From an uncultured Lachnospiraceae bacterium (lineage in GTDB: Bacteria > Bacillota > Clostridia > Lachnospirales > Lachnospiraceae): DNA of 43,431 nucleotides. Every line of letters starts with the position of its first letter. The stretch's first letter is position 1. This document shows, piece after piece, positions 24,428 through 42,789 of this stretch. A model generated the notes under the pieces. That model was not told the DNA's origin, did no database searches, and saw nothing but the letters and a program-made list of their open reading frames with translations. Made by a program: the position numbers and the translations under genes. The stretch spans positions 1-43,431 of the forward strand of contig CAMKEX010000008.1 of NCBI GenBank assembly GCA_946411695.1, given 5' to 3'.

Positions 24428-24428
24428 C

Positions 24429-25715
24429 TCACTTGCCAACTGTTCTGATCCTTTCCCTGAATCTACTGTAAAGCGTCCCCATGTCATCCTGCCCATGGAG
24501 GCGGCTTTCCCCCAATACAGAAAGCGGATAGAAGAACAGAAGGTTAAAGGCCGGGTCCAATCCATACCGCTCCAAAACAGCAAATACACTCATGAGTACT
24601 CCGAGGACTGCTATAGCATAGTCTGCTTTTTTCCACGCCAGGCGGTTTGCCAGGCACAGAAGGCACATGCACGGGATAAGCCATAAGAGTCCGCGTATCA
24701 CCCCATATGAGATGAAAGCATTGTCCACCGCAAACAGAGCAATTTTCTCTCCGTCCACTATCATTTTGACAGACCCGGATGTGTTGATAGAATGACCGAT
24801 CAGGGGAAGTCCGTATTGCCTGATCGTAATGCCTGCCTGTACGAATCTCTCACCAATGCTGAAAAGAGCATTGTCGTAAGTGAATCTGTGGATCAGGTTG
24901 ATCGGTATACACAAGAGTAAAGTGATGCCCAAACAGATTAAGGGCGCTGCAGCAATCAGTATTTCCTTTCCTCTGTTTTTTTTCAGCTCACCCATGTAAC
25001 AGGACCGCCACAACAGCGGAAACACCAGCAGGAGGAAGATGATGGTCCGGCAGCGGTTTGTTATGATCAGGAAGACTGCAGCACCCCAAAACAGGATCCA
25101 TGTCGCTTTTTTCTTCTCCTGCAAAAACAGATACCATAAACTGAAAACGATTATGAATATGATACGCGCAGCTGTATTCGGGTGAACCATTCCAAATGCG
25201 TGCTTTGCCCCATAGTCCGTAAATCTCACAGTGTCTTTTGTGTATCCGAGCAGAAGTCCCATAAATGCTGTCAGGAAAATTCCCGCATAAGCCACCAGGA
25301 ATACTGCGACGGTTCTACGGAAGTTTCTGTTCCATGAAGCTGCAACAAGGTAAATGCCAGTCACTGCATAGAAGGGGGCTATACCCAGACCAGGCATCTT
25401 TTGAAGGAAAAAGCAGGCCAGCGAAGATGCTGTCATGAGATAAATAAACGTCTTTACCCATGCTCTTTTTCCATCCTTGTCCAGAAACGCTTTTCCGATC
25501 AATTCTCCTGCAGACAGGCACAAGTGCGTGACAATCAGGATAATGATTCCCGAATTCAAATATCTGCTCTGTATCAGAACGATATAGGGCGTCTCGCCCC
25601 TGAAGGCTATGAGCGAAAGGTAATTTGTAACAATAAACGCAAATAAAACCGCATCATACAATGCCGCTTTAAAACTGATCTGATGCTCTTCCTGTTTTTT
25701 AAACCGATGCGCCAC
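24429..25715 (-). CDS. O-antigen ligase/polymerase-like membrane protein (Wzy type)
   Basis: 428 aa. The frame begins with GTG at 25715 (MAHRFKKQEEH); a clear ribosome site is not visible, so an inner start is possible. About ten to twelve membrane spans alternate with short loops, with a larger outer loop near residues 280-330 (RFTYDNALFSIGERFVQAGITIRQYGLPLIGHS) as in O-antigen ligases and polymerases. Little sequence is conserved in this class, so the call rests on topology and on the exporter and glycosyltransferases behind it. It is the first gene of the glycan cluster, 102 nt after the pilin stop, with a hairpin in between. Confidence 0.75.
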   Translation of the reverse strand: MAHRFKKQEEHQISFKAALYDAVLFAFIVTNYLSLIAFRGETPYIVLIQSRYLNSGIIILIVTHLCLSAGELIGKAFLDKDGKRAWVKTFIYLMTASSLACFFLQKMPGLGIAPFYAVTGIYLVAASWNRNFRRTVAVFLVAYAGIFLTAFMGLLLGYTKDTVRFTDYGAKHAFGMVHPNTAARIIFIIVFSLWYLFLQEKKKATWILFWGAAVFLIITNRCRTIIFLLLVFPLLWRSCYMGELKKNRGKEILIAAAPLICLGITLLLCIPINLIHRFTYDNALFSIGERFVQAGITIRQYGLPLIGHSINTSGSVKMIVDGEKIALFAVDNAFISYGVIRGLLWLIPCMCLLCLANRLAWKKADYAIAVLGVLMSVFAVLERYGLDPAFNLLFFYPLSVLGESRLHGQDDMGTLYSRFRERIRTVGK

Positions 25716-25817: not shown

Positions 25818-27392
25818 TTAGTTGCTGCTCATGCGGCGGCGAGTAATCATAACTACACCTGCACCGATGACAAGCATAGCACCAACAACGTAGAACATAG
25901 TTGTACCCATACCACCGGTGGAAGGAAGTTCTGTGCCAGTATTGTTGACGACAACAATCGGAGTTGCAGCAAGATCATCGATGGAAACAAGTACGTCGAA
26001 ACCTTCTTCCGTATGCTCCGCTACCTGCTTACCATCTTTATCAAAATAAGTAGTGACAGAAGTAGTTGTAGCGCCTGTCTTAGTTGCAGCAACAGATACT
26101 GGAGCTGTCAGCTTGTTATAACCAGCAGGAGCAGCTGTCTCTGTAAAGCTGTATGTTCCCTGTTCCATACCTTTAATCTTAATCAGGCCATCTGCCGGAG
26201 TGGTAAGGCTGTTTGTGTAATTCTCCTTATCTGCATCGCTAAGTGCGGCATATGCTGTAGGATCAATCGCAACGTAAGCACCATCAGCAGCAGGGGTCTT
26301 GTTAACATAGAAAGGCAGCTCAAATACTGCACCGGCAAGGTTCTGACCCTTCTGGTCGACCTTCTTGATTGCAAGAGCATAAGTATAAATTGTCGTTTTA
26401 ATCTCTTGCTCATAAGGATGGTCTTCATTGTCATCCGTCTTATGAGTAATCTCAACTTCGTTGGTATTTCCGGCACCGTCAACTGCTGCAGTAGCTGCAA
26501 CCTTAGCGGTATAAGTAATGATCAGAGTAGTACCATTCTTGTACAGAGATGCACCATATGTTGTAGTAGCTTCGTCGCCTTCACCGGAGGTTGTAGCTTC
26601 AGCCCAAGGAATTGTAATGGTATTATTTACAAACTGCTGTGTTGTAAGGGTTGTCTGATCATCTGTTGTGGCAGTGTTTCCATCATTATCAACAATAATA
26701 CTTGTAACAGTAATGTTTTCCAGAGAGTTAGCTGCCGGAGTATCTTTTACAGTGTAGGAGACAATCTGTTTTGTCCCATCATAGTTAGCAGTTGCAAATT
26801 TAACTGTATAAGTTACAGTCTGACCTACGTACACATCATCGTCATCAACAGTCTTTGTCGGATTGCTAATCGGAGGTGTAGTGTTCTTATCAATGATCGT
26901 TGCATTCGGTTTTGTGGAATCAACAGAGATTGCGTTCTGGCCCTGTGTTGTAGTAACAACATAGTAACCATAATCAAGACCAGCAAAAGTAAGTTCTGTA
27001 CCATCACTTACAACAGAAGCGGTTGCTGTCTGAGTTGCCGCCCATGCCTTCAGTGCTGCAATTGCTGCATCGGAAAGGCTGTCCCCATTTTTGGCAGCAT
27101 CAGTAGCTGTAATATTACCAGCGGAATCTTTCGTGAAATAAGCTGAGAGGCTTTCCGGAATAGTTCCTGTGTAAGCGATAGAATCGCTCTCACCACTTGT
27201 CTGAGTTGCACTATTGGTAGCATCAAACAGCTTGTATACAGCATAGGTTTCACCCTTAGATGCATTACTGATGGTAATGCTGCCTTTTCCGTCAGCCGCT
27301 GTGCCCACTGTCTGAGCGAAAACAGCTGTGCTCATACCAAGTACCATAACCATGGCAATCAGCAGAGCGAAGAATTTTTTCATTTTCTTCAT
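25818..27392 (-). CDS. LPxTG backbone-type pilin (SpaA-like)
   Basis: 524 aa. ATG at 27392 behind AAAGGA. Signal peptide about residues 1-26 (FFALLIAMVMVLGMSTAVFA). An N-terminal domain follows, then a fimbrial isopeptide-formation D2-like domain from about 175 (NPTKTVDDDDVYVGQTVTYTVKF; the NPTK lysine is a candidate pilin or isopeptide Lys). A SpaA/Cna-B domain spans about 345-455 with an E-box-like TETAAPAGY. The C-terminus is a sortase signal: LPSTGG, hydrophobic span, RRRMSSN. Such subunits are linked covalently by class C sortase and fixed to peptidoglycan. No sortase is found in the window. It follows the two adhesin genes. Confidence 0.9.
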   Translation of the reverse strand: MKKMKKFFALLIAMVMVLGMSTAVFAQTVGTAADGKGSITISNASKGETYAVYKLFDATNSATQTSGESDSIAYTGTIPESLSAYFTKDSAGNITATDAAKNGDSLSDAAIAALKAWAATQTATASVVSDGTELTFAGLDYGYYVVTTTQGQNAISVDSTKPNATIIDKNTTPPISNPTKTVDDDDVYVGQTVTYTVKFATANYDGTKQIVSYTVKDTPAANSLENITVTSIIVDNDGNTATTDDQTTLTTQQFVNNTITIPWAEATTSGEGDEATTTYGASLYKNGTTLIITYTAKVAATAAVDGAGNTNEVEITHKTDDNEDHPYEQEIKTTIYTYALAIKKVDQKGQNLAGAVFELPFYVNKTPAADGAYVAIDPTAYAALSDADKENYTNSLTTPADGLIKIKGMEQGTYSFTETAAPAGYNKLTAPVSVAATKTGATTTSVTTYFDKDGKQVAEHTEEGFDVLVSIDDLAATPIVVVNNTGTELPSTGGMGTTMFYVVGAMLVIGAGVVMITRRRMSSN

Positions 27393-27625: not shown

Positions 27626-30600
27626 TCAGTTTAACCTCCTTTCCCTTCGCCTCATCCTGAAGCCGTACATCAAAGCGGAAGCCATGATAAGGGCAATACC
27701 GCCTAATGTATAAGGTAATGTGCCGGATCCTCCGGTAAGCGGAAGGGCGGATCCCGGATGGTTGATAACGATCATTACGCGATTCGAGACTTCACTCGTT
27801 GCGTCGCTGCTCCGGTTAAGGACCAGATCATCCTGGAATTCCGCATAGACATTTCCATGATGGTCGACCATGAACTCCCATGTGTTGGTTTGAATGACAT
27901 ATCCACCAGGTGCTGAGGTCTCGATCAATTGGTAATATCCCTGTGGTAATGACAATCTCTCAAATCCAGAATCACCAATGCTGATCCCGGTTCGATAGGT
28001 TTCATAATGACCGTTTTCATTCGGCTTTCTTAAGAGTGTGAAAACAGCACCTGACAGGATCTTCTCCTGATCCAGTCCATCCAGATTATCGCTGGTCGCA
28101 TCTTCACTTGTTGCATCTTCATTCATCTTAATCAGAACAACCTCGGCTGTATCTTTCATTTTATTTGTGAAGATGATCTTTATATTTCCATCAACAGTTA
28201 CTTCTTCACCATTATTAATTGCTTGTGCTTGTGTCGACCCGTCATCTTTAGTAACCTCTATCGAAGCTTCAATATCCCATAACCCTCTGTCAACTTCAGT
28301 AATGCTGAACCGGGTTCCATAAGGAATTTTCGTTTTAAATTCTTTTATGTGGGTATCTGAACCCGTATCTCCGGTAAGCGAAAAGTTGGTCTGCAGTTCA
28401 GGTGTGATTCCGGTCATCCCTGTGAAATCGGGATAAAAAGTGTATCTGTGTGAAAGATCAACCTTCCAGTCAGATTCAACGGTCTTCTCAACAGTGACCG
28501 TATATTTTTTAATTTCCCAAACTGCATACAGGGTATTGGCGTCGGTATTTCCCTCTCTGGACAGATTGTCCGCTGCAACATGTTCCTGTCCCAGTACAAA
28601 ATCAACAGTGTTGTTATCACCGGATGTCAGAGACCAGCCTTTCAGGGTATACCCTTCGCGAGTATAGATTTCGCCGAGGAGAGTAAGATCCCCATTGATC
28701 TGTCTGTTCAGGTACTCAACTGTCTTTGCATCTTGATTAACTCTCTGTTTCTGTATTCCTCCCTCATATTCATCTTTCAGTGAACTATCTAAATCAACGC
28801 TGTTGGGATCACTGACATTCGGGTCAAACTTGATGTTTGTGACCTGTACATCCCGTTCAGAAATCGGTTCATAGATTGGATAGAATGTAAACTTCTGATC
28901 AATATCTCCATCTGCTCCATCAACATTTGAATCGATCTTGAATACGTTGCCGGGGATGTAGACTTTCCCGTTGAAGTAGTAACCTGTACACACATAACCG
29001 GTTGGCGGATCAGGTCTGTGCAGAATGATTGTATCGGATTCATCCTCGTAGGTCTTTCCGCCAACAGGGGCGTCTGAACCTGTCAGCCTCGTCAGTGAAC
29101 TGACTGCAGCCGCATCGACTGTTTTTGTATCGCCGTTTTCATCCTTGTATGTGTATGTCCCATCACTGTTTTGCGTAACCAGATAGGTTTCATCACCAAC
29201 GGTATAGGTAAATAAGGGATTTCCATTGGCATCGACACCTTCTGTTTTGTAAACCGTACTGAAGGCACCGGTTTTGATCCAGTTAGCCCGGAGAGTAGTG
29301 TTGTGCGTGATCGGTGAGCCAAAACGATAAGGAATCAGGACTTCCTCTCCGGTATCCTCATCGATTGTCACCTCATACCATCCGTCAAGTGAGTACAGAT
29401 CGCTGGGCGAATATCTCTTTCCATCTGTACTCTTTGTTTCATCTTGTGTATAGTAAGCTTTTCGTTCATCCCCTCCATAGATATTCTTCTCTGTATCGGG
29501 ATCAAATTCATCATAGTGGTAATACCAGGTACCATTCGGATCCTCGGCAAATACTCGCTTAACATCAGTGTATTCAGATACGGATGTATCACCATGCCGT
29601 TTCCAGAACCAGGTCGACTCCGTTTCGGATAGCTCTCCTCCATTCGGTTCGATTTTGATCCAGTAATAAATCGGTTCAAATCCCGGGAAAACTTCCAGGT
29701 CATGGTTAGGCATCGTTCTGTCAAAGTTGAATTGCGTTTCCATCTTAGGATCGGCATACCAGATAATGTTTCCTTCGTCGTCTGTTTTCAGTCGATAGCC
29801 TGTCGGAACATGCCCTTCAACGACTGACTTTGCAGGAGCTCCGGAATTGTCAATATCTGCGCCGTAGTTGAATGTACGGAATGATATAATTTCTCTGTCA
29901 ATCGGATCCTTATAAGTGATGTTGTAGGAATACACCCTATAGTAAACTTCCAGATTATAGTACGTTCCACTATTAGCTGTATGAACTACAATTCTTGTAC
30001 CAACAGTGCCTTGTACTATCTCATCATCGATATAACGTTTGTTTGCTCCCGAACCGGTATAACGACGATAGCCATACACGGAGTAACCCTCGTATTTTTC
30101 GCTCAAGCTGAACGTAAATTCCGCGTTATAATCCGTATGTCCGGTTCCGGTGGCGTCAAGCCGATACGAATCCACATCATCAAAATCCGTTTCTTCCGGT
30201 TTTTGAAGATACATCTCAAAAATATTCGTTACATTTCCTGTGGTTGTCAGGTTAATCACTTTTCCGGTCGTATCTCTTACTCCACCAGGCAGAATGAATT
30301 GCCCCAGATAGCTCATGCCTGTATAACCCGATTCATTATTCTCATATTGCCACACATAATTGGACGGCCATTGATATCCATACTTCTGCAACTGTTGGCC
30401 AAACAGGCCCGTAAACGAGCGAGTAGTAGTCTTGACATAGCGCGTACCGTCATAGATATGTTCTACGTTTTGAGTGGTCGGGTACTGGCCGTCTTTCAGC
30501 TGCACCATCTCCCCATTTACGAAGCCGTAGGCACCATTGCTATTGATCACATAGCGAGTGCCGTTATACTGTTGATCATCGTAGTTGGTGTGATTTTGTT

Positions 30601-33600
30601 TTCTTGACCAGTGTCCTCCATAGTATGTTGTGTGTCGATATAACTCCACTGGCTGACCGTTATAAACACCATACTGCTGGGGACTGGTGTCATTACTTGT
30701 AGTTGTGTTATACCTTGTACCTGTATAATCAACGTACTGTGTCTCGGGAGCCGTATAAACCCAATTTGTTCCGTTCCAGGTGAGTTCCACATACTTTCCA
30801 TCGACATGGCCGTACTGTGTTCCTGTGGCCACTTCGGTTTCGGTATATGCTTCAACATCACGGTTGAAATTCATCGTGATCAGGTTTCGGTCATAATAGA
30901 CATTAACAACGGTACTGCCGTCTGCATTGATAGTCTTCTCGGCCGCATCGGTTTTAGCATAGGTAAATCCGATATATTTCTTATAATCTTCGTCTGTGGG
31001 ATTATAAGCGGCGCTGTTCATATTCCGATCAGCATTCGTTAAAGCGACCGTGCTTCCTACAACACCCGTGCCGGTTCTCTGTCCGGCATAATCGTAATTC
31101 TTATGATCCGCGTCCAGATTCTTATCATCCGCCAGCTGCTGCCGCCAATACAGAACCGTATAGGTTGTATTGGCTTTCTTCCAATATGCGTTTAACTTTA
31201 CATCCGAGGTCAGCTTCTGATTAAAGTTATACCTCGCCGGTTCATGTCCGGCGGCAAACTCAATCGGTTTCCCGTTCTCGTCAAAGGTGTCTTCCGTTGT
31301 CCAATACTGGAATTCATATCCTCTCCAGTTCATGGTTTCAGTCGGTTCAGCCCCGGCTTCCGCCGCTGTCTGATTTATGCCGACATGCACAGGTGCGACA
31401 TAGGTTGCGCCGCTTCCGTTAGGTCCGGAGTAGTATTCCACCCAGTGCGCAAACTGGTACACAGGCAAAAGTACATAGTCGCGGCTTACATCGGGGTCCA
31501 TCTCTATCGAAATGACATAGTTATTTGCATCTCTCGTAACGCCCGGGACATAATGTCCATCCGGTCCATTTTTAGGATCGACCTGATTCCATGTAACACC
31601 GGGCTTTAATTTAAGCTCGTCATTCTCCCATGTGAAATAACCGCTCATTTCACTTTCGTCATGCAGCAGTCTCCATCCCGCGAAAACGAGATCTGCTTCT
31701 CCGCTACCACCAACGCTTTTGTGGTTCGGCACAGTCTGGATCGTCGTGTCATACGTAGTTCCCAGGGGAACCTCTTCCTTGTTGTGAATCAGATATCCGG
31801 TTACATTATCTTCACTGAACAAATAGTCAATGAAAGTAACTTTGTGATAATTCCCGTAGTAGGGAATAACATATACATCCTCCGTCTGGGTTACTGTCAG
31901 GGGTTCCCCGAAAACAACATCCCGGCCATAGGATATGGAGGTATAGTTTTTCCCGGAGGTATTGGTGGGATCATATCCCTCCAGGTTGGCAACTCTCCAT
32001 CCAACCCACGTCTTTTCATCAGGAATATAAGGAGTGTTAATCGCTTCCAGTGCGTCTCCCGTTTTAATGATCTGGTTGTCTACCAGTTCACCGGCGGTGT
32101 TATAGAATCTGTAAGGTTCGATTGCACCTGTCTCTTCGTTTAATCTGACAAAATGGTAGATCCTTCTCGGAACAACTTCCTCATCGCCCTCAACAATGGC
32201 ATAAATTGAAAACCCGCCTGTTTCAAAGCTGACCGTGTCGTTTTTGACTTCGGGGACAATTACCTCAGGATCCTTGTTCTCGGCAAAGTGAACGATCTGT
32301 GTTCCCTCCCCTGCGTAATCGGTATCCATCAGTCTGATCTGAACATCGACCGGTGCCAGGAGTGTTACTTTATTGTTGTTTTCATCAACAATACTGATAT
32401 CAATCAGCTTGATGTAATTCAGGGAATCTGCGTCGCCCTCAATCGCATCTGCTGTCCGCTCAACATAGTCGTTATACTCAGAATCATTCTTGGTGACTTC
32501 AAACACCTGGAGCCTGGCATTTTCAGGTATTCCGGCATTATCACCGTAGGTCACGGTGACTTCATATGTACGTCCGTCACCAGCCACAAAGGGAACTGTT
32601 ATCGTCCCTGTCCCGACGATGCCGTACACCGAGAATCCGTCTGTCTCGAACTGGACGGTGTCAACTGCCTGCTCTTCGGACTTGCTGAACTCAGCCTCAT
32701 CCATGATCTCAACTTCTTTGTCATCTTTATAATGTAGAAGCTGTGTGTCATCGGTGTCGGTCTGTTCGATGCCCGTAAAGTTGATCTGTACACTTACAGC
32801 TGCCCTGGGCTCGACCTTCTCGCCATCAGCAAGGATGGTGATGTCAAAGAATCTGGCCTCGTTGACAGATTTGGTCTCGTCAACGGTACTTTCTGCCTGC
32901 TTGAGGTAGGAGGCATATTCATCGGTGCCTTTTTCAATCTCCCGGACTGAGAGTTCTGCGTTGTCCGGAATCTGCGCGTCATCGGTATAGGATACGGTGA
33001 CAGTGTAATCGGAGCCCTTGCTTGTAAGGCTCTTCTGCCCCCTTGTCTGCGGATCTTCGTTCCCGGCGGGTGCAGCCATTGTGAGAGTGCGGCTGATCTC
33101 GTCTATATTCTTGTCATTGTTCTCTTCTGCAAAAACGACTTCCGCTTCGCTGTACTGGATCTCTTCTGTTGTTCCGTCTTCTTTTTCAGCAGTTTCTTTT
33201 CCGGTCTTCTCGAAATCGATCTGAGAGGTGGACAGATCAAAGGTGAAGAAGCCTTTGACTTTCTGCCCCCGGGATGTCACCTGCCCCTTTTCGTCGTAAG
33301 TGATCTGGTTCTTCTCGACAGTGTAGGGGATAAATGTGAAGACAAGATCCTGCCTGCCGCTTCCGGTTTTTTCCACCTTGACAGTCGCGGAGATATACTC
33401 GTCGCCGGCCTTCTCATCAGGAGTGCGGCTGCCTTCGATTGCTTCCGCACCGAGGTATCTGTCACGCTCGCTGCCGGATTTGGATGCGGCGATGCCGTTC
33501 TCGTATTTGTTGATGGCCTTGATCTGCCTGTCGCTCAGTTCCAGACATGCGGGCAGTCTGTAGCGCGCCTCGGCATTGGTCTCATTGAGAGCTCCTGCCG

Positions 33601-34426
33601 GAATCTCGTAGGAGAGATAGACGCGCACGAAATCTTCCGGAGCGAGGACCGTGTCAGAGCCGGCTTTCTTCCAGTCATCAATGGTATCAGAAGAGAGGCT
33701 TTCCGCTTCTTCCGCATTCGCCGGATGATAGTAATAGAAGTTTGTCCTGCCTGTGAGGATGTCGTCGAAGTCGAGGGCATCGAGTGCAGGGATCTGGAAC
33801 TCTGCAGCCGTTTCCGCTGTTGCAGCAGTATCGGCAGCATCCATCGTCCCGGTACCGGATTGGTCAACGCCGGCCTGGTCTGCATCCTCCTTCACATCCT
33901 GCTTATCCTGTGTATCTGCATTCTGTGCTTCGGAGGAGTCCGACTCAGATGAGGGTGATGCGTCAGCTTCACCGGCAGAGCTCTGGTCTTTCCGGACTTC
34001 TTCAATTTCTTCAACTTCTTCAATTTCTTCAGCTTCTTCCGGCTCTGCGGGAGCTTCTTTCTGCGTATCAGAAGCAGCCGAAGTCTCTTCTACAGAGCTT
34101 TCAGCAGGCTCTTCCTTTACAGTCTCTTCCTCTGCCGGTTCTTCTGCTGCCGGTTCTTCTGCCGCGGGTTCCTCCACCTGCACTTCTTCCTCAGTGCTGT
34201 CCGCCGCGGTCACAGAGGCCGCAGACGCAGTTGTCTTGAACTGCATCTGTTCAAAAGCTATGCCCGGCTCCCGCCCGGCTCTGGAAACATCCAGCGTGAT
34301 GGCAGGAAGCACCAGGGCATAAGTCGTAACAAATACGACTATTGCCGCAATCACGGAAACAATCCTTTTCCTGGTCTCTCTTGTTTTTTTCTTCTTGAGA
34401 TAATCTGAATGTTTCAATTTAGCCAC
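27626..34426 (-). CDS. Giant LPxTG surface adhesin, copy B (2266 aa)
   Basis: GTG at 34426 as the longest frame; a TTG three codons in (34417) has GAGGA at better distance. N-terminal anchor/signal at about residues 20-46 (RIVSVIAAIVVFVTTYALVLPAITL), an acidic Glu/Ala-rich spacer (about 80-215), then a block shared with copy A to about residue 770 (LDALDFDDILTG, YDDAQIPDNAELSVREIE and a related YGDNAGIPENARL repeat). The specific core holds InlB-type repeats (FAGWRLLHD, LDGWYEV, LKGWSLTSG ending in YAVWEIKKYTV) and a Tyr-rich repeat region near residues 1195-1340. A Cna-B/SpaA domain (AVFTLLRKP...LIETSAPGGY) and LPLTGG, membrane span and RRRERRLN close it. Likely a pilus tip or wall-bound adhesin. 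Confidence 0.88.
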   Translation of the reverse strand: MAKLKHSDYLKKKKTRETRKRIVSVIAAIVVFVTTYALVLPAITLDVSRAGREPGIAFEQMQFKTTASAASVTAADSTEEEVQVEEPAAEEPAAEEPAEEETVKEEPAESSVEETSAASDTQKEAPAEPEEAEEIEEVEEIEEVRKDQSSAGEADASPSSESDSSEAQNADTQDKQDVKEDADQAGVDQSGTGTMDAADTAATAETAAEFQIPALDALDFDDILTGRTNFYYYHPANAEEAESLSSDTIDDWKKAGSDTVLAPEDFVRVYLSYEIPAGALNETNAEARYRLPACLELSDRQIKAINKYENGIAASKSGSERDRYLGAEAIEGSRTPDEKAGDEYISATVKVEKTGSGRQDLVFTFIPYTVEKNQITYDEKGQVTSRGQKVKGFFTFDLSTSQIDFEKTGKETAEKEDGTTEEIQYSEAEVVFAEENNDKNIDEISRTLTMAAPAGNEDPQTRGQKSLTSKGSDYTVTVSYTDDAQIPDNAELSVREIEKGTDEYASYLKQAESTVDETKSVNEARFFDITILADGEKVEPRAAVSVQINFTGIEQTDTDDTQLLHYKDDKEVEIMDEAEFSKSEEQAVDTVQFETDGFSVYGIVGTGTITVPFVAGDGRTYEVTVTYGDNAGIPENARLQVFEVTKNDSEYNDYVERTADAIEGDADSLNYIKLIDISIVDENNNKVTLLAPVDVQIRLMDTDYAGEGTQIVHFAENKDPEVIVPEVKNDTVSFETGGFSIYAIVEGDEEVVPRRIYHFVRLNEETGAIEPYRFYNTAGELVDNQIIKTGDALEAINTPYIPDEKTWVGWRVANLEGYDPTNTSGKNYTSISYGRDVVFGEPLTVTQTEDVYVIPYYGNYHKVTFIDYLFSEDNVTGYLIHNKEEVPLGTTYDTTIQTVPNHKSVGGSGEADLVFAGWRLLHDESEMSGYFTWENDELKLKPGVTWNQVDPKNGPDGHYVPGVTRDANNYVISIEMDPDVSRDYVLLPVYQFAHWVEYYSGPNGSGATYVAPVHVGINQTAAEAGAEPTETMNWRGYEFQYWTTEDTFDENGKPIEFAAGHEPARYNFNQKLTSDVKLNAYWKKANTTYTVLYWRQQLADDKNLDADHKNYDYAGQRTGTGVVGSTVALTNADRNMNSAAYNPTDEDYKKYIGFTYAKTDAAEKTINADGSTVVNVYYDRNLITMNFNRDVEAYTETEVATGTQYGHVDGKYVELTWNGTNWVYTAPETQYVDYTGTRYNTTTSNDTSPQQYGVYNGQPVELYRHTTYYGGHWSRKQNHTNYDDQQYNGTRYVINSNGAYGFVNGEMVQLKDGQYPTTQNVEHIYDGTRYVKTTTRSFTGLFGQQLQKYGYQWPSNYVWQYENNESGYTGMSYLGQFILPGGVRDTTGKVINLTTTGNVTNIFEMYLQKPEETDFDDVDSYRLDATGTGHTDYNAEFTFSLSEKYEGYSVYGYRRYTGSGANKRYIDDEIVQGTVGTRIVVHTANSGTYYNLEVYYRVYSYNITYKDPIDREIISFRTFNYGADIDNSGAPAKSVVEGHVPTGYRLKTDDEGNIIWYADPKMETQFNFDRTMPNHDLEVFPGFEPIYYWIKIEPNGGELSETESTWFWKRHGDTSVSEYTDVKRVFAEDPNGTWYYHYDEFDPDTEKNIYGGDERKAYYTQDETKSTDGKRYSPSDLYSLDGWYEVTIDEDTGEEVLIPYRFGSPITHNTTLRANWIKTGAFSTVYKTEGVDANGNPLFTYTVGDETYLVTQNSDGTYTYKDENGDTKTVDAAAVSSLTRLTGSDAPVGGKTYEDESDTIILHRPDPPTGYVCTGYYFNGKVYIPGNVFKIDSNVDGADGDIDQKFTFYPIYEPISERDVQVTNIKFDPNVSDPNSVDLDSSLKDEYEGGIQKQRVNQDAKTVEYLNRQINGDLTLLGEIYTREGYTLKGWSLTSGDNNTVDFVLGQEHVAADNLSREGNTDANTLYAVWEIKKYTVTVEKTVESDWKVDLSHRYTFYPDFTGMTGITPELQTNFSLTGDTGSDTHIKEFKTKIPYGTRFSITEVDRGLWDIEASIEVTKDDGSTQAQAINNGEEVTVDGNIKIIFTNKMKDTAEVVLIKMNEDATSEDATSDNLDGLDQEKILSGAVFTLLRKPNENGHYETYRTGISIGDSGFERLSLPQGYYQLIETSAPGGYVIQTNTWEFMVDHHGNVYAEFQDDLVLNRSSDATSEVSNRVMIVINHPGSALPLTGGSGTLPYTLGGIALIMASALMYGFRMRRRERRLN

Positions 34427-34977: not shown

Positions 34978-37900
34978 TTAATTTGTCCTCCTTTCTTTAC
35001 GCCTCATCCTGAAGCCGTACATCAAAGCGGATGCGATGATAAGCATCAGACCGCCTAATGTATAAGGTAATGTGCCGGGGCCGCCGGTGTTCGGTAAAAC
35101 AGCACCCGGCGTATTCTTAACTGTAATCGTATATGCTGGTGTATCACCTGTTCCCGGGTCGTCAATTGCTGCCATATCTGCAGGACTGTCTAATGCCGTT
35201 CCGGCTTCGTCCGTCAGTCTTGCCTTTACAACACCGTCTTCTGTATCCCTGTACACCTGAAAATAGATATGCTTCGTGAGAATGATATATCCATCCGGTG
35301 CCTTTGTTTCTGTCAGACGGTATCTGCCTATGCCAAGCTCGCCCAGGTCAACCGGATTTGGAACAGCAGACGTTGTACCGGCTGCCGCTTTTCCCGGCTC
35401 AATGTCCGTCTGAACAACTGTCCAGGATGTGCGGTACTTATTCAGGTCAAAAACAGATCCGCTGATTGTCGTACTCCCATCTTCCCTTACCTTCTTCAGC
35501 TGAACATCAACAGAAGCCAGCTTATTGGTAAATACAACCTTAGCATCTTTATCCCATGCAATTCGTCCCAGCGCAGCACCGGTAATCGTTGTTCCGGATG
35601 CATAATCATAGATAGATGCATTTTGAATTTCAGCCGCATCATAGTCTGATACATCTCTGCTTTGCAGGATCCAGTCACTATTTGCTAAAAGTACATCTGA
35701 TGTAGATCCATTGGGTCTGACACGGATTTCGTCAACATAAAAGTCTGTGCCGGCGACCAGATCCATGATCACGACTGTATAATTGGGAGGAATATGTGCA
35801 ATTGTGCCATTGTTGCCTGCAGCACATGGATAAGGTGTCTGACCGTTCGAAACAAGTTTTCCACCCTCATATCTGTAATACACGCCGTAATCATCGCGGA
35901 TATAATACGTACCCTGATAGTAATCAGAGAGTACCCCGGATGCATTCTCCAGCATTACCCGGAATTCGAAAGTGTCGCCATTATTCTCCGATGGATCCGC
36001 CAGCCGTTTCGTTATCCGCAGTTCATTGGTATTTCGATCGTCACAGTGGTTTGTAAATGTTACTTTGGCGCGGCTTCTTGCTGTCGCTTCCGTTGATTTG
36101 TAAATGCCGTCCACTTTAATAACCTGTTCGCCAACAATCCGAACATCATTTACAAAGATCTGGTCGTAGTATTTATCGTCAATCCCAAGCTCCTGAACAT
36201 AGTACAGTTCATCTTCGATCATATTCGAGAATACAGCTGCTTCTCCCGGTTTGAGATAGAACACATTGTCATAGTCCGTATCATGCCCGAAGAATTTCAC
36301 ATCATTATGGAAGACGACTGGTGTATTCGTTCCTTCATAAACAGCAGAAGTCAGCGGCTGATAATCCCCATGTGCATCTTTGGCAAACGCCTGGTATGCA
36401 AATGAAACGTTCGCATAATCAACCTGAGATGTGTGATCCAGCTGCTTTTCAACCGTCACATTTCCTCTTTCAATAACCGGAAGGTTGAATCTTGTCTGCA
36501 GATTTGATGCACCTTCTCCATGCTCCATATAGAACATGTTGAACTTGTGACTGCCGTAGCTTATAAACGTATCTCCTTTAAAATACTGATCTACTTTGGT
36601 GCCATCCCATGGTTTGCCATCAGGGAATACACCTGCATTCTGGAAGCATTGTTTGATCGTTCTGGCACCGCCTGCACCGCCATGACCGCCGGTGATATCT
36701 CCTGTTGCAAAATTGATTGTACCCGGAAATGCATCGTGAACGCCGCCGATATCCAGAATCAGTACGTCATCAACAAAAATCCACAGATCATCGTCACCAT
36801 TGAACTCATATACCAATGGATTGCCGTTATCATAACCATCTTTCGGTATCAGGAAATTGAATTCCATGCTCATACCGAAAAAGTAGTTGGTGGAGCCTTT
36901 TATGCCATACAAAGTACTCCCATAATCCGGGTTCTCATAGTCAAGTATTGTCCCATCGCCGGCATATAGATTTTGTGTCTGCTTTTTTTTCGGATCCAGC
37001 TCATTAAACGGTAAGAAGTTTCCCCGCCTGAAAAAGAAACGTTCCGTATCTGTGTCAGGCGTACCGGTTTCCTGATAAACCGTAAATGTACCATTATCAT
37101 TGTAGTGCGCAAAATTGTTAAAGGCGCTGTATTCATAATAACCTGTGGCGTTGAACACACTCTCGAGGAACAGATGATTTCCGTCCCCTTTGCAATAGTC
37201 ATTGTCAGGCGCAAACAGAACAGATCCGCTGTTTCCATTTGTAAATACGGGATACCCGCCTGCCAGCTTTGACTCAACATGAGAGGGAGGCAGCCAACCC
37301 ACACCATATTCGTCACTCCCTGTAACACTTTTGATTTCATCTCTATTGTTATAATCGAACATATGTATGGTGACGCCGGCCGCTTTACTGTCTACCGTTG
37401 CCACCTCATGCAGACCTGGCTCCGATGTCTTTTCTTTTGCAAATGAGAGCGCCTGTGAATGATCTCCCGTACCTGTCTTAAGATCCACTACACCATCTTC
37501 TGTTGTAAACCGATAGCCATAATAAGTCATTGCCGACTCATCCCAGTATTCAATTGTAGAGGTGTACGCGCCTCCTTCTCTGCCTTTCAGGGAAACACCG
37601 TCTGTGGCCGGAGACGTCGCAGCATCATATTCCCTGACAAGTGTTCCGTCCGCCAAAGGATGCAGAATCATTCCCGTCGCTTCATTCCGGAAGATATAGT
37701 ATCCTGTGGGTTGTCCGCCGGCATCCTTGAGTATATCCACCGTCCACATCGGAGATATGTCACTATATAGAGACAGTGAGTCACCCTGATCATATGCCCG
37801 GACAGGATTACCATTTCCGTCGATAATCCACTCCTCGTACTTGTTCCTCGTTTCGTTATAGATGGTTCTGTAAATCAGATATTTTTTACGATCTTCAAGA

Positions 37901-40782
37901 TTCTGTACACTGATTTTTTCACCGCTGTATTCCTGACTTCCAATTGAGAATTCATCCACTTCACATAAAGTCAAATATACCTGACCAGCCTCATTTGAGT
38001 CTCCATTATAGAAGTATTGATTATCGTTTACGGCGGCTGTCGTAGCGGCATCCATACTCGACTGCACCCTGCGGGCACCGTGGGATATTCTTACTTTTCC
38101 CTCATAATCACCGGTTCCTGCAGTGACAGTAAGCGCCTGCTTCGTATCTGAAAGCTCCAGGCTGTCATCGTCCTTCAGATTTAAATACCGTCCATTCGGC
38201 GCTTTAATATAATATGTATCCGGCGCTTCTGCAGATTCAAATTTCCACTCTACAATCGGTGCTGTGTCGCCGGTGACAAGATTCCTTCCGCTTTCATGTG
38301 TTTCAACAGTTACGGTTACTCCGTCAAGTCTCGTCGTGTTGTTATTCCACGCATCTGTTGCTAAGGCGCGTCCCCTATAGTAATTATGATTTTTTCTGCG
38401 TCGATCTGATTCAGTAGGTACTGTTTTCACCCAGACAATCGCATAGGATTTCCCGGCAAGATCTGATGTTGCGCCATATGTCGTCACTGCGTAATAAGAA
38501 AACCCTGCAGCCTCAAAATTCACAGTTTTCCCGTTCAGATCCGGATTGATAACTTCTGTTTCACTTTCACCGAAATGAACTACCTTTGTCTTCTCCCCTG
38601 CGCTGCCTTCTGCATGATCTTTATCAAGCAATTTGATCTGCACATCCACCGGTGCCTGAATGACAACCTTTTCTTCCCCGTTCATAATGGATATATCGAG
38701 GATTTTTATATAATTGAGAGCATCAGCGGCTGTTCCGACCGCATCAGCAGTCTGCTCCAGATAATTCTGATATTCTTCACTTTCTTCGCGCAGCTCTGAA
38801 ACTGCCAGCGTAGATCCCGCAGGGATTCCCGCATCCTCTCCGTATGTGACAGTCACTTCGTATGTACGTCCGTCACCTGCCACAAACGGTACTGTTATTG
38901 TCCCTGTGCCGACAATACCGTACACAGAGAATCCGTCCGTCTCGAACTGGACGGTGTCAACCGCCTTTGTCTCGTTCTCAGGCTCTTCAGACTTACTGAA
39001 CTCAGCCTGATCCATGACCTCAACCTCTTTATCGTCTTTATAGTGGAGAAGCTGTGTATCATCTGAGTTGGTCTGCTCGATGCCTGTAAAGGTGATCTGT
39101 ACGTTTACCGGAGCCTGAGGTTCGATCTTCTCGCCGTCAGCCACGATAGTAATGTCAAAGAATCTCGCCTCGTTGACAGATTTGTTCTCGTCAACAGCAC
39201 CCTTTGCCTGCTCGAGGTAGGATGCGTATTCGTCGGTATCTTTTTCAATCTCACGGACTGCAAGTTCTGCGTTATCCGGGATCTGTGCGTCATCGGTATA
39301 GGACACGGTGACAGTATAGTCATTGTTCGCGCCCTTGCTGATCAGGGTCTTCTGCTCCTGTTCCTGCGGCTCGTCTTTCTCGACAGGTACAGCCATGGTA
39401 AGTGTGCTGCTGATCTCGTCAATATTCTTGTCATTGTTCTCTTTTACGAAAACAACATCCGCTTCGCTGTACTGGATCTCTTCTGTTGTGCCGTCTTCTT
39501 TCTCTACGGTCTCTTTTTCCGTATTCTCAAAGTCGATCTGAGAGGTTGTCAGGTCAAAGGTGAAGAAACCTTTAACATTCCTTCCTTCCGAAGTCAGTTT
39601 TCCTGTCGCATCATAGGAGATCTGGTTCTTCTCGATGGTGTAGGGGATGAAGGTGAAGACAAGCTCCTGTCTGTCATCGTTGGTCTTCTCAACCTTGACG
39701 GTCGCGGAGATATACTCGTCGCCCGCCTTCTCGTCGGGAGTGCGGCTGCCTTCGATGGCTTCCGCGCCGAGATATTTGTCGTGCTCGCTGCCGGATTTGG
39801 ATGCGGCGATACCGTTCTCATATCCGTTGATGGTCTGAATCTGCCGGTCGCTCAGCTGCAGTACGTCAGGAAGTCTGTATCGCACTTCTGCGTTGGTCTC
39901 GTTGAGAGCACCCGCGGGAATCTCATAAGAGAGATAGACGCGCAGGAAATCTTGCGGAGCAAGGACAGTATCAGAACCGGCCTTCTTCCAGTCATCAATG
40001 GAATCGGAAGAGAGGCTCTCAGCTTCATCCGTATTCTCAGGATGATAGTAATAGAAGGCCGTCTCACCTGTGAGGATGTCATCGAAGTCAATGGCATCGA
40101 GAGCAGGGATTTGGAACTCAGGAGACGTTTCTTCAGAAGCAGCAGAAGCATCATCTGTCATCCCGGCACCGGACCGGTCAACCGCAGCCTGGTCAGCCGT
40201 AGACCGGTCCGTCTCCTTCTGAGGATCCGCAGTCTGTGCATGGGAGGATTCAGACATGGAAGAAGAAGCCGCATCAGTCTTGCTGCCAGAACCTTCGTCT
40301 CCCCGAATTTCTTCGGTTTCTCTGGTCTCTGCAGCCGGTTCTTCTTCCGGATCAGATTCGGCCGGAGTTTCCTGATCTTCCTCCCGCTCTGACACTGCAG
40401 CAGCCTCTTCCTGCTCCTGATTGTCAGAAGCGGCCGAAGATTTCCCTTCAGAGTCCCCTATGGTGTCTTCCTCAACAGTCTCTTCCTCTGTAGGTTCTTC
40501 GGCCGAATCTTCCTCCACCTGCACTTCTTCCGCAGCGCTGTCCACCGCGGTCACTGATGCCGCAGAAGCAGTTGCCCTGAACTGCATCTGTTCAAAAGCT
40601 ACGCCCGGCTCACGTCCGGCTCTGGATACATCCAGCGTGATGGCAGGAAGTATCAGGCTATAAGTCGTAACAAATACGACGATGGCCGCGATCGCGGAAA
40701 CAATCCTTTTTCTGTTCTCTCTGATTCTCTTCTTCTTGAAATAATCCGAATACTTCAATTCCCCTGCTTTCTCTCTGATCAA
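34978..40782 (-). CDS. Giant LPxTG surface adhesin, copy A (1934 aa) with fibro-slime-like domain
   Basis: TTG at 40782 behind AAAAGGAAG; the family-conserved part begins eight codons in (LKYSDYFKKKR). The first ~800 residues parallel copy B: signal/anchor RIVSAIAAIVVFVTTYSLILPAITL, acidic spacer, the DAIDFDDILTG block and two AGIP/AQIP repeats. The core differs: a long stretch of carbohydrate-binding-like beta sequence (DLAGKSYAIVWVKTV..., YYIKAPNGRYLNL), then a fibro-slime/PA14-like segment near residues 1330-1400 (GDDDLWIFVDDVLILDIGGVHD). Cna-B/SpaA-type domains follow (LRITKRLAD, VQLKKVREDG...LTETKAPDGY) and LPNTGG with span and RRKERRTN. It is the first gene behind the inverted-repeat segment and so the one most directly controlled by it. 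Confidence 0.88.
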   Translation of the reverse strand: MIREKAGELKYSDYFKKKRIRENRKRIVSAIAAIVVFVTTYSLILPAITLDVSRAGREPGVAFEQMQFRATASAASVTAVDSAAEEVQVEEDSAEEPTEEETVEEDTIGDSEGKSSAASDNQEQEEAAAVSEREEDQETPAESDPEEEPAAETRETEEIRGDEGSGSKTDAASSSMSESSHAQTADPQKETDRSTADQAAVDRSGAGMTDDASAASEETSPEFQIPALDAIDFDDILTGETAFYYYHPENTDEAESLSSDSIDDWKKAGSDTVLAPQDFLRVYLSYEIPAGALNETNAEVRYRLPDVLQLSDRQIQTINGYENGIAASKSGSEHDKYLGAEAIEGSRTPDEKAGDEYISATVKVEKTNDDRQELVFTFIPYTIEKNQISYDATGKLTSEGRNVKGFFTFDLTTSQIDFENTEKETVEKEDGTTEEIQYSEADVVFVKENNDKNIDEISSTLTMAVPVEKDEPQEQEQKTLISKGANNDYTVTVSYTDDAQIPDNAELAVREIEKDTDEYASYLEQAKGAVDENKSVNEARFFDITIVADGEKIEPQAPVNVQITFTGIEQTNSDDTQLLHYKDDKEVEVMDQAEFSKSEEPENETKAVDTVQFETDGFSVYGIVGTGTITVPFVAGDGRTYEVTVTYGEDAGIPAGSTLAVSELREESEEYQNYLEQTADAVGTAADALNYIKILDISIMNGEEKVVIQAPVDVQIKLLDKDHAEGSAGEKTKVVHFGESETEVINPDLNGKTVNFEAAGFSYYAVTTYGATSDLAGKSYAIVWVKTVPTESDRRRKNHNYYRGRALATDAWNNNTTRLDGVTVTVETHESGRNLVTGDTAPIVEWKFESAEAPDTYYIKAPNGRYLNLKDDDSLELSDTKQALTVTAGTGDYEGKVRISHGARRVQSSMDAATTAAVNDNQYFYNGDSNEAGQVYLTLCEVDEFSIGSQEYSGEKISVQNLEDRKKYLIYRTIYNETRNKYEEWIIDGNGNPVRAYDQGDSLSLYSDISPMWTVDILKDAGGQPTGYYIFRNEATGMILHPLADGTLVREYDAATSPATDGVSLKGREGGAYTSTIEYWDESAMTYYGYRFTTEDGVVDLKTGTGDHSQALSFAKEKTSEPGLHEVATVDSKAAGVTIHMFDYNNRDEIKSVTGSDEYGVGWLPPSHVESKLAGGYPVFTNGNSGSVLFAPDNDYCKGDGNHLFLESVFNATGYYEYSAFNNFAHYNDNGTFTVYQETGTPDTDTERFFFRRGNFLPFNELDPKKKQTQNLYAGDGTILDYENPDYGSTLYGIKGSTNYFFGMSMEFNFLIPKDGYDNGNPLVYEFNGDDDLWIFVDDVLILDIGGVHDAFPGTINFATGDITGGHGGAGGARTIKQCFQNAGVFPDGKPWDGTKVDQYFKGDTFISYGSHKFNMFYMEHGEGASNLQTRFNLPVIERGNVTVEKQLDHTSQVDYANVSFAYQAFAKDAHGDYQPLTSAVYEGTNTPVVFHNDVKFFGHDTDYDNVFYLKPGEAAVFSNMIEDELYYVQELGIDDKYYDQIFVNDVRIVGEQVIKVDGIYKSTEATARSRAKVTFTNHCDDRNTNELRITKRLADPSENNGDTFEFRVMLENASGVLSDYYQGTYYIRDDYGVYYRYEGGKLVSNGQTPYPCAAGNNGTIAHIPPNYTVVIMDLVAGTDFYVDEIRVRPNGSTSDVLLANSDWILQSRDVSDYDAAEIQNASIYDYASGTTITGAALGRIAWDKDAKVVFTNKLASVDVQLKKVREDGSTTISGSVFDLNKYRTSWTVVQTDIEPGKAAAGTTSAVPNPVDLGELGIGRYRLTETKAPDGYIILTKHIYFQVYRDTEDGVVKARLTDEAGTALDSPADMAAIDDPGTGDTPAYTITVKNTPGAVLPNTGGPGTLPYTLGGLMLIIASALMYGFRMRRKERRTN

Positions 40783-40887
40783 TCACTTCCTTTTCTCTCA
40801 AACCTGTGGTTGATCCCACAGTCACGCAAAACTGGGACAGTCGTATGGTCCTCTGGCAGTTTGAAAATCCGGAAGAGTTTTAGCTTT

Positions 40888-40913
40888 TACCGCAAAATAA
40901 CTATTATGCAGTA
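40888..40913 (+). repeat. Left inverted repeat (candidate recombination site)
   Basis: 26 bp, begins TACCGC and ends ATTATGCAGTA; its right half is one copy of the half-site motif ATTATGNRGTA. Confidence 0.8.
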
Positions 40914-41103
40914 GACCAATACCTTCATTTTTGCTTGTAACACAGTGTTTTCATGTAGCCAGAGGAAGAGATTTTTCTGATCATCCGCTTTTTTAATAGG
41001 CAGATGACATCCCCACTATAGAGTTGATGAATCATCGTTCCGGCCCGAAGCCGCGCAGAGGCAGCGGGAGACAGAAAGGCGGGGACTATTTGTCATGTTC
41101 CGG

Positions 41104-41346
41104 ATTATGAGGTAATAACAGACTGAAAGCCCCCCTGGAGATCAGATGAGGTTTATACAAATTGTGATTATGTGGTAAAAATGGAGTATAAGCAGCTTTC
41201 GTGAGAAAACATGAGAAGAGATTATGCGGTAAAAGCGGAGTATAGGCAGCTTTCATGAGAAAACATTAGAAAACATTAGGAAAGATTATGTGGTAAAGGA
41301 AGTGAGGGGGCTGCACGAAAAGACAGGAAAATACGTTTATGCAGTA
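41104..41346 (+). repeat. Five solitary half-site motifs in direct orientation
   Basis: ATTATGAGGTA (41104), ATTATGTGGTA (41167), ATTATGCGGTA (41221), ATTATGTGGTA (41285) and TTTATGCAGTA (41336), all followed by A. Units 2-3 also share GGAGTATA(A/G)GCAGCTTTC and TGAGAAAACAT, giving a 51-64-bp tandem series. The 11-base motif equals the arm of the inverted repeats, so these may be recombinase-binding accessory sites. Confidence 0.75.
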
Positions 41347-41390
41347 AAGAGAGCTTCTCAAAAACGTGCAAAATAAATTTGAAGCAATAA

Positions 41391-41410
41391 AAAAAGCCCT
41401 GATCGGGCAC
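41391..41410 (-). terminator. Weak terminator-like hairpin inside the invertible segment
   Basis: On the minus strand GCCC-GATCA-GGGC followed by seven T residues. The stem is only 4 bp. In the present orientation it would stop leftward transcription that enters from the recombinase side. Confidence 0.4.
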
Positions 41411-41503
41411 AAAAATAACTGCGGCGTATTGAAAAACCGCAAAAAATCTGATATTTTCTGTTGAGGCCATTCGTTTTGACGGTTATTGTGACACGAAGGG
41501 CTT

Positions 41504-41509
41504 TATAAT
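41504..41509 (+). promoter_or_regulatory. Candidate -10 box inside the invertible segment, pointing away from the adhesins
   Basis: Perfect TATAAT. The best -35 is TTGACG at 41476-41481, but the spacer is 22 nt, so an activator or another sigma site would be needed. Inversion of the segment would place it about 290 nt upstream of the adhesin start and facing it. Confidence 0.4.
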
Positions 41510-41665
41510 TGGCTCATGATACGAGAATTGTAAATAGATTGCGTGTCTGTGCCTTTTTTGATATCAATTACACCATTAATGACTCAGCAAAGACTCTACA
41601 AAATTTGTTTTAGCGACATCGGTCAGCCGGAAATTGACAGGTATACTGATGAAAGAGTTTTGAAC

Positions 41666-41691
41666 TACCGCATAATAGTTATTATGGGGTA
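41666..41691 (-). repeat. Right inverted repeat (candidate recombination site)
   Basis: 26 bp with symmetric core CATAATAGTTATTATG. Both arms match the half-site motif: ATTATGCGGTA (minus strand) and ATTATGGGGTA (plus strand). Confidence 0.8.
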
Positions 41692-41734
41692 TTTTTTTTG
41701 TTCAAAATCCCTTTCTGTGTATAGAGCAAAGGCG

Positions 41735-42586
41735 CTATACTGCATCCAGGCTGTTTTCTACTTTATCCAAAATATCCAGCTGGCTTTCACAGCTGATCAG
41801 TGTATAGATCCTTGTTGTATTAATACTGGTATGTCCGAGCAGGTCTGCAAGGCGGACAATGTCCTTTTCTGTCCTGTAGTAATTGACAGCAAAAAAATGC
41901 CGCAGGTTGTGCGGGAAGATCTTGCTCCTCTCAACCTGCGCTGCCGAGCTCAATGCTTTCATCCGGTGAAGGATGTTGCTGCGGTCAAGAGGCCGTCCGG
42001 TTCTGGTGATAAAGATGCTGCCTGACAGGATTTTCCGTTCCTTGCAGTACTGACGAAGCTTTTTGCAGAGCTTAGCAGGGATGAGGACCTGCCTGGTCTT
42101 TCCTTTCAGAGATACAAGGGCACGCCTGGTGTTAAGTGACGCAACAGTGATAAAAGGCAGCTCGCTGATACGGATCCCCGTCGATGCGATGGTCTCCATG
42201 ATACGGTGGATCTGCATGTCTCCCTTGTCCCTGGCCGCCTTCAGCAGTCTCTTGTATTCCTCCATGGACAGCTCCCGCTCCTCATTGCGGAAGGAAGCGC
42301 GCTGTGTCTTGAAGGTCCTGACATAGCAGTCATCCCATCCCAGCAACTGGAAAAATTTGTTGAGAGCCGAGAGCATGGAGTTTGCACTGCTCAGCCGGTA
42401 TTTTTCCCGCAGCATCTGTTTGAAACGGATCACCCTGTTCTTGTCAACAGTTCCGTTGTCACCCAGCCATCTCCTGAAAGTCGTAACATCCCTGATATAT
42501 TTGCTGATGGTGAGGGAGCTCCTCTCGAGCTCCATCAGTCTTTCCGAAAAAAACGTCACAGTCTGTCCATCGATATAGTGTTCCAT
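41735..42586 (-). CDS. Tyrosine recombinase (XerC/D-like integrase), candidate invertase
   Basis: 283 aa from ATG 42586, directly behind GAGGAGGG; the open frame reaches up to 42700 without a ribosome site. N-terminal SAM-like core-binding domain (about residues 1-95: FFSERLMELERSSLTISKYIRDVTTFRRWL). The catalytic domain has all active residues: Arg139 in STGIRISEL, Lys171/173 in LKGKTRQV, His226 and Arg229 in PHNLRHFF, His252 in LLGHTSINTT and the nucleophile Tyr261 in RIYTL. Length and lack of an arm-binding N-terminal domain fit Xer-type and phase-variation recombinases rather than large phage integrases. It lies next to the inverted repeats. Confidence 0.92.
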   Translation of the reverse strand: MEHYIDGQTVTFFSERLMELERSSLTISKYIRDVTTFRRWLGDNGTVDKNRVIRFKQMLREKYRLSSANSMLSALNKFFQLLGWDDCYVRTFKTQRASFRNEERELSMEEYKRLLKAARDKGDMQIHRIMETIASTGIRISELPFITVASLNTRRALVSLKGKTRQVLIPAKLCKKLRQYCKERKILSGSIFITRTGRPLDRSNILHRMKALSSAAQVERSKIFPHNLRHFFAVNYYRTEKDIVRLADLLGHTSINTTRIYTLISCESQLDILDKVENSLDAV

Positions 42587-42627
42587 GATACCCTCCTCAT
42601 GAAGAGCTGAAGGCAGTATAAATGTAC

Positions 42628-42638
42628 GTTTTGCGGTA
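42628..42638 (+). promoter_or_regulatory. Half-site-like motif in the recombinase leader
   Basis: GTTTTGCGGTA; it differs by one base from one arm of the left inverted repeat (ATTTTGCGGTA). It lies 42 nt upstream of the recombinase ATG, where binding could repress its own gene. Confidence 0.35.
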
Positions 42639-42760
42639 TAGCCCTGTTCCGGGCTCACGTTCTTCCGGCATCTTGCTATTAACTGGAAGATATAATACAA
42701 GCAATTCTGCGTTATTGCAGTGCTATATACACAATATATGTGTTATATTCGAGCACGTAC

Positions 42761-42789
42761 ATTATATACAATCATGGGATTTTGAACAA
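42761..42789 (-). promoter_or_regulatory. Candidate promoter of the recombinase gene
   Basis: On the minus strand TTGTTC (42789-42784), 17-nt spacer, TATAAT (42766-42761). Leader of about 165 nt. It is independent of the invertible segment, so the recombinase should be made in both orientations. Confidence 0.55.

Follow-up and report, generated by a model that had tools for sequence, protein, structure and literature searches.

The window that we analysed is the whole of contig C8 (43,431 bp), which belongs to a 3.71-Mb assembly of 301 contigs. It carries a giant adhesin gene, a tyrosine recombinase gene and, between the two, a segment bounded by inverted sites, with further surface-protein, pilin and glycan genes beyond the adhesin (Table 1). 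Some 105 bp separate the distal site from the start of the adhesin reading frame. An LPNTGG motif was read from its translation, and its match to the fibro-slime family fell below the cut-off. A gap of 551 bp separates it from the second giant adhesin gene. Among the downstream glycan genes the Wzy-like match was weak (22 bits against a cut-off of 450). No sortase was found among the window ORFs searched, and an Rfam search of the window for a riboswitch or other known leader RNA returned nothing at gathering score.

Table 1. Coordinates of the switch elements and neighbouring genes in the window
Feature	Position	Strand	Description
Downstream glycan genes	19237..25715	-	Wzy-like, three GT2 glycosyltransferases, ABC-2 exporter pair
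SpaH/EbpB-like major pilin	25818..27392	-	94.9 bits, cut-off 95
Second giant LPxTG surface protein	27626..34426	-	2266 aa
Giant LPxTG-type adhesin	34978..40782	-	1934 aa; SpaA domain; presumed first target
Distal core site	40888..40913	+	TACCGCAAAAT-AACT-ATTATGCAGTA; two inverted half-sites
Solitary half-site 1	41104..41114	+	ATTATGAGGTA
Solitary half-site 2	41167..41177	+	ATTATGTGGTA; 63 bp on from half-site 1
Solitary half-site 3	41221..41231	+	ATTATGCGGTA; 54 bp on from half-site 2
Solitary half-site 4	41285..41295	+	ATTATGTGGTA; 64 bp on from half-site 3
Solitary half-site 5	41336..41346	+	TTTATGCAGTA; 51 bp on from half-site 4
Terminator-like hairpin and U tract	41389..41408	-	4-bp G+C stem; faces adhesin as assembled
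Promoter-like block	41474..41524	+	TTGACG, 22 bp, TATAAT; points away from adhesin
Recombinase-proximal core site	41666..41691	-	TACCCCATAAT-AACT-ATTATGCGGTA; inverted relative to distal site
Tyrosine recombinase	41735..42700	-	321 aa from TTG start

An earlier note on this DNA had described a complete tyrosine recombinase separated from the giant adhesin gene by an 804-bp, gene-free segment, with two 26-bp inverted sites at its ends that are identical at 23 of 26 positions and share a 14-base core. Each of these points was confirmed. The recombinase is complete, with Pfam matches to Phage_integrase (8.8e-26) and Phage_int_SAM_1; the identity of the sites is 23/26, their common core is AATAACTATTATGC, the outer span is 804 bp, and zero ORFs of at least 90 aa lie wholly within 40888-41691. 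A 160-aa frame (41543-42025, +) runs over the segment edge on the strand opposite to the recombinase. When 40783-41734 was shuffled 200 times with dinucleotides preserved, no 26-bp inverted pair scored above 20/26, short of the 23 observed.

The frame of the recombinase has an alternative ATG start (MEHYIDG) 38 codons in. Residues R177, H264, R267, H290 and Y299 are invariant across four aligned recombinase sequences, and we take them to be the tyrosine-recombinase catalytic R, HxxR, H and Y. The nearest solved chain is XerD (1a0p, 5.6e-19), and the protein is, as judged from its catalytic domain, an Xer-like tyrosine recombinase. A housekeeping XerC or XerD was rejected as its identity, with scores of 123.7 bits against a cut-off of 329.6 for XerD and 113.5 against 335.15 for XerC.

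Each core site is itself palindromic, with two 11-bp half-sites and a short spacer between them (distal site, + strand, TACCGCAAAATAACTATTATGCAGTA; recombinase-proximal site, - strand, TACCCCATAATAACTATTATGCGGTA). A palindrome of two half-sites around a spacer is the form expected of a tyrosine-recombinase core. The outer half-sites, TACCGCAAAAT at the distal end and TACCCCATAAT at the proximal end, belong to the flanks, and the inner half-sites belong to the segment; the inner half-site on the promoter side is ATTATGCGGTAGTTC. The palindromic sites also match each other directly, as attL/attR repeats would. We rejected this direct-repeat reading because an inverted orientation follows from the spacer and from the 14 bases in common, and because a paralogous locus, C108, shows inversion. 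A shufflon was rejected as well; the window has two full cores only, with no ORF of at least 90 aa wholly between them. From the distal to the proximal end, the segment consists of a variable arm, an array of solitary half-sites, the terminator-like hairpin and the promoter-like block. The palindromic build of the sites, the solitary half-sites, the promoter-like block and the terminator were all absent from the earlier note.

Four close loci were compared with the window: C108, the paralogue in the same genome, and UBA4380, RUG12566 and RUG375, which are Lachnospiraceae MAGs (the RUG prefix presumably denotes rumen genomes). The three MAG loci have the layout and the adhesin of the window, with a counterpart of the adhesin start on the far side of the distal site in RUG12566 (64% across residues 3-400), RUG375 (69% over 162-400) and UBA4380 (74% over 4-46, at the contig end). 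The segment is arranged alike in four of the five loci and oppositely in C108, where the array-side inner half-site and its arm are joined to the recombinase-side (proximal) flank and outer half-site. When C108:10460-11191 was compared with UBA4380 by BLAST, bases 1-74 matched the UBA4380 proximal flank on the minus strand (90%); the plus-strand matches, of bases 47-271 (82%) and 651-732 (95%), were to its distal arm. The two matches overlap at bases 47-74, which is the site. By this alignment, corresponding positions of C108 and UBA4380 are inverted relative to each other, a difference between genomes rather than within one strain.

The C108 contig stops within the segment, before the distal junction and the adhesin, and there is no adhesin match in C108. 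Its neighbour gene on the recombinase side, which we take to encode a CoA-transferase, is common to UBA4380 and RUG12566. An ON-side contig for C108 was sought, and both the promoter block and the site pattern were absent from all further contigs of the same genome (G000); a site-like match on C123 was set aside as one half-site only. Across the genus, the site pattern was present in 4 of 62 genomes, the same four that have a recombinase at least 81% identical. The earlier note proposed to look for the flipped segment in related strains; it was found in the paralogue, with the break at the site. The note's proposal would have been refuted by a failure of the inverted repeats to persist alongside the recombinase, and they are conserved along with it. 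Its wider proposal of recombinase-linked inversion upstream of an adhesin is well supported by the paralogue, the conserved sites and a family-wide design that is described below.

Around the recombinase gene, inverted copies of TTGTTCAAAATCCC were found at 41698-41711 and 42776-42789. Both copies of this 13-bp flank occur in the window, C108 and UBA4380 (three of the five loci), and only the downstream copy was found in RUG12566 and RUG375. Upstream of the recombinase, the stretch at 42857-43429 (-) encodes an AP2-domain protein by a match of 23 bits against a Pfam cut-off of 33.3. A similar coding stretch was read by eye beside the C108 copy (L008, about 8558-9230, +), and the ORF lists of RUG12566 and UBA4380 included no AP2-like neighbour of at least 120 aa. 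Autoregulation of the recombinase through an upstream half-site was considered and dropped: the window has one weak match there (42628, 12.4 bits), and upstream of the other close recombinases the sole match, in C108, scores 9.8 bits. No transposase was seen among the subset of window ORFs submitted to Pfam.

The promoter-like block is nearly identical across the four loci with a complete segment. Its 22-bp spacer exceeds the canonical length, and a consensus promoter scan did not call it, making four calls in the region against a shuffled mean of 4.2. Because the scan leaves the block uncalled and the spacer is long, we can only infer that it works as a promoter. As assembled, the block faces the recombinase, so the window is probably in the OFF orientation. 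The terminator-like hairpin has a counterpart, by pattern match, in the three other complete clade segments (4/4 in total). Folds computed for three of these four segments gave z values of -1.9 to -2.5, and a stricter terminator scan of the window did not list the hairpin.

Recombinases of this kind extend well beyond the clade, with a match in 72 of 397 family genomes at E<=1e-60. We sampled 85 loci, which are part of the genus and family recombinase matches and are weighted to better scores. For six short loci (L035-L037, L039-L041), longer stretches of the same places were taken instead. Short copies or unrelated recombinases (L001-L007, L009-L012, L017-L023), second copies (L024, L025, L027), a repeat of C108 (L034) and site hits (L064-L076) were left out. 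A palindromic inverted pair was present downstream of the recombinase in 61 of the 85 loci, usually within ~130 bp, and the enclosed segments span 179 to 2,011 bp (median 262). Half of the 24 loci with no pair have a contig end no more than 300 bp past the recombinase gene on its downstream side; longer sequence was available for the remaining 12, including C108 with 732 bp, and still showed no pair. Contigs end within 300 bp of the recombinase on its downstream side in 12/85 loci and on its upstream side in 1/85. Such downstream ends are as expected from assembly breaks at mixed orientations, and repeats could also cause them.

Several of the ten longer distant loci have a switch that precedes a large ORF (for example L084, L085 and L086), and the starts of these ORFs look like those of surface proteins. 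Among the Clostridia sampled in PMC5903667, signalling and chemotaxis were the functions most prevalent near inversion sites in the part of that study considered, which runs against the emphasis on surface proteins here. Other arrangements were observed in the sample. L089, L108 and L109 have three full core sites each and L124 has six, three per end and 34 bp apart; these four are possible multi-state switches. In L030 (6366-8402), a perfect 26/26 palindromic pair encloses 2,011 bp beside a recombinase that is 46% identical. In L040 (the region of L077, G226:C2), where an inverted pair was sought beside the recombinase without success, GAGTATTATGAAGTGGAAT occurs downstream of the recombinase at 2713 and, 465 bp further on, at 3178. 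The G226 genome has five such recombinases, each near a large ORF.

For a survey of promoters we used the 55 of 60 segments that are under 500 bp, with a sigma-70-like threshold of 10/12 or better. A promoter-like site was present in 26 of the 55, compared to a mean of 8.0 and a maximum of 12 in 40 rounds of shuffling; such sites faced the target in 8 segments and the recombinase in 20. By the strict terminator scan, a target-facing terminator was present in three. These numbers bear on an alternative suggested by cwpV (PMC2784873, in the portion that deals with its control), in which a promoter outside the segment, such as that of the recombinase gene, would drive transcription and the orientation of the segment would decide whether a terminator blocks read-through to the adhesin. 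Such an invertible terminator would suit the co-directional arrangement of recombinase, segment and adhesin and the adhesin-facing hairpin found in every complete clade segment, three of them folded. However, the far more conserved promoter-like block sits within the segment, and across the family it is promoters that are enriched, with strict target-facing terminators rare. We consider this alternative unlikely.

It is also conceivable that there is no inversion switch, that the sites once served a now decayed mobile element for attachment or resolution and that C108 is an unrelated rearrangement. Tyrosine recombinases often serve mobile elements, and the 13-bp inverted flanks of the recombinase gene in three of five loci would be in keeping with such an origin. 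Nevertheless, the same layout recurs in 61/85 loci, promoters are enriched in the segments and the C108 break falls inside the site, and we give this possibility hardly any weight.

We think it highly likely that the segment at 40888-41691 serves as a promoter switch with ON and OFF states, inverted by the tyrosine recombinase encoded beside it. In the proposed mechanism, the recombinase would bind the four core half-sites, exchange strands within the central spacer and so invert the segment. In the ON orientation, the promoter-like block would be aimed at the giant adhesin gene; in the OFF orientation, probably that of this assembly, it would point to the 3' end of the recombinase gene. The directional terminator within the segment would then stop read-through from the recombinase. 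Phase-variable expression of the first adhesin is likely to follow from inversion. The pilin and glycan genes further on, past the 551-bp gap behind the first adhesin gene, might conceivably be under the same control, as the earlier note suggested. As judged from sequence comparison, the giant adhesin genes of this rumen-type Lachnospiraceae bacterium are very probably switched on and off by the flipping of this segment through the adjoining recombinase.

The solitary half-sites within the segment number five in the window, seven in C108, five in UBA4380, six in RUG375 and two in RUG12566, and all are oriented like the distal inner half-site. With a stricter match, UBA4380 has four half-sites (one on the opposite strand) rather than five and RUG375 five rather than six. 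The UBA4380 segment also holds two half-site-like matches on the opposite strand, at 786 and 816, which are outside the array count. Besides the cores, the window has six matches of at least 13 bits: the five array half-sites and a single one elsewhere, in the 42.6 kb outside the segment. The 57 other switches that have a pair differ in this respect: 51 have no internal half-site, two have one and four have two or more, and in all four of the last group these are parts of extra full cores. In our sample the row of half-sites is, by motif match, confined to this clade. Because the array matches the half-site of the recombinase itself, the recombinase is its likeliest binder.

The spacings between half-sites are mostly 51-54 bp and otherwise 43, 63 or 64 (window: 63, 54, 64 and 51 bp; C108: 52 and then five of 53; UBA4380: 52, 53, 53 and 54; RUG375: 52, 43, 53, 52 and 53; RUG12566: 53). 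Taken together, the 20 spacings fall close to multiples of 10.5 bp (R=0.91). The recurrent 53-bp steps of related, non-independent loci dominate this value, and periods of 10 to 11 bp fit just as well as 10.5. The four spacings of the window alone are not significant (p about 0.09). The informative spacings are 43, 63 and 64, each about one helical turn off 53.

RUG12566 and RUG375 (L015, L026) are similar loci whose arrays consist of two and six half-sites, respectively, a difference that suggests gain or loss in units. Such a difference would be compatible with an array that is a neutral remnant of tandem duplication, as would two 54-bp units of the window that are 87% alike; the sequence between half-sites in the window is also more alike (0.50) than when shuffled (0.40). 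In C108, UBA4380 and RUG375, however, the stretches between half-sites resemble one another about as little (0.35-0.39) as shuffled ones do (0.35-0.36), and yet the half-sites and mostly 52-54 bp steps have been kept. A neutral remnant thus seems very unlikely to us.

The distances between the array and the elements on either side of it were also counted in helical turns. The first half-site lies 19.1 turns from the distal core in the window, 27.0 in both C108 and UBA4380, 25.3 in RUG12566 and 25.1 in RUG375. At 10.5 bp per turn, the distance from the last half-site to TATAAT is 16.0 turns in the window (168 bp), 30.1 in UBA4380 (316 bp), 24.1 in RUG375 (253 bp) and 24.3 in RUG12566 (255 bp). 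Since both distances are near whole turns except in RUG12566, they do not separate control of recombination from control of the promoter.

If the array were mainly transcriptional, with the segment promoter activated or repressed by the bound recombinase or by another protein that recognises this site, the recombinase would be a regulator of the genes that it switches. Whichever way the segment points, the row stays upstream of the promoter block, and its last half-site is phased to TATAAT as given above. A long promoter spacer goes with the need for an activator, and that of the block hints at such a need. There is also a parallel in Tn5401, where TnpI binds the recombination region and modulates transcription, according to the relevant part of PMC7157771. 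Against this reading, a similar phasing holds between the distal core and the first half-site, which makes the phasing non-discriminating, and the number of half-sites, 2 to 7, varies beyond what would be expected of a fixed activator site. We regard a mainly transcriptional role as rather unlikely.

What we propose for the array, with less certainty than for the switch, is that the same recombinase binds the row of half-sites along one face of the helix and that the bound row serves as an accessory element, biasing or gating inversion, or else controls the promoter. The chances that its role is control of recombination seem to us evenly balanced, and titration, another binder or a lack of function together appear improbable. 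Tentatively, and on somewhat less than even terms, a self-bound phased array might be both a recombination enhancer and a transcription regulator of the adhesin promoter. If this were true, the ON/OFF bias would be set by the concentration of recombinase, in a self-counting version of the fim and Hin accessory machinery that is free of host factors. The arrays form a natural length series of 2 to 7 sites, which raises the question of whether a tyrosine recombinase could be its own accessory protein in setting the bias of a switch.

The switch belongs to a large known class, and the phased half-site array is what is new. Surface adhesins of Lachnospiraceae probably switch through this widespread recombinase family, for which the grammar of the sites is supplied here. 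In the literature that we searched, mostly outside subscription journals, we recognised no description of a recombinase half-site array in an inversion switch. Invertons of gut Clostridia (group 139, with tyrosine invertase group 35; PMC11892184) likewise place a clostridial tyrosine recombinase near an inverted-repeat segment. The comparison with these groups is by their description, which came without motif letters or recombinase sequences, and the array present here goes unmentioned in the text consulted from that source.

The E. coli fimS element, inverted by FimB and FimE, is likewise an invertible promoter of an adhesin operon served by a tyrosine recombinase, and it has a terminator that acts on recombinase mRNA, comparable to the combination of promoter and terminator here (PMC9993118, sections on the switch). 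As given in the same sections, fimS is 314 bp long and is biased by IHF, Lrp and Fis, whereas the segment here spans 804 bp and carries a row of recombinase half-sites. The cwpV gene of C. difficile, switched by RecV, also encodes a large phase-variable cell-wall protein, with an XerC/D-type recombinase and possible control by a terminator. Unlike the window, however, cwpV has a 195-bp segment, a promoter outside it and an unlinked recombinase gene (both comparisons from the part of PMC2784873 that describes the locus).

Our nearest precedent for the array, by analogy, is TnpI of Tn4430 and Tn5401. The irs of TnpI has a core of inverted half-sites, IR1-IR2, and direct-repeat accessory sites, DR1-DR2. 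The account of these elements drawn from PMC7157771 likewise has a core and extra sites bound by TnpI, with an effect of TnpI binding on transcription. In sequence, the clade described here resembles this plan, with a core plus accessory half-sites. The two differ in that the TnpI system serves transposon resolution with two accessory sites, whereas here the array has up to seven and lies in an inversion switch, and in that the accessory half-sites here start 200 bp or more from the distal core. A further parallel is the Hin/Fis recombinational enhancer, a remote element bound by Fis that gates inversion of DNA by a serine recombinase. Like the array, it provides extra protein sites away from the crossover. 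In contrast to Hin, a serine recombinase whose enhancer is bound by Fis, the switch described here has a tyrosine recombinase and an array made of that recombinase's own half-sites.
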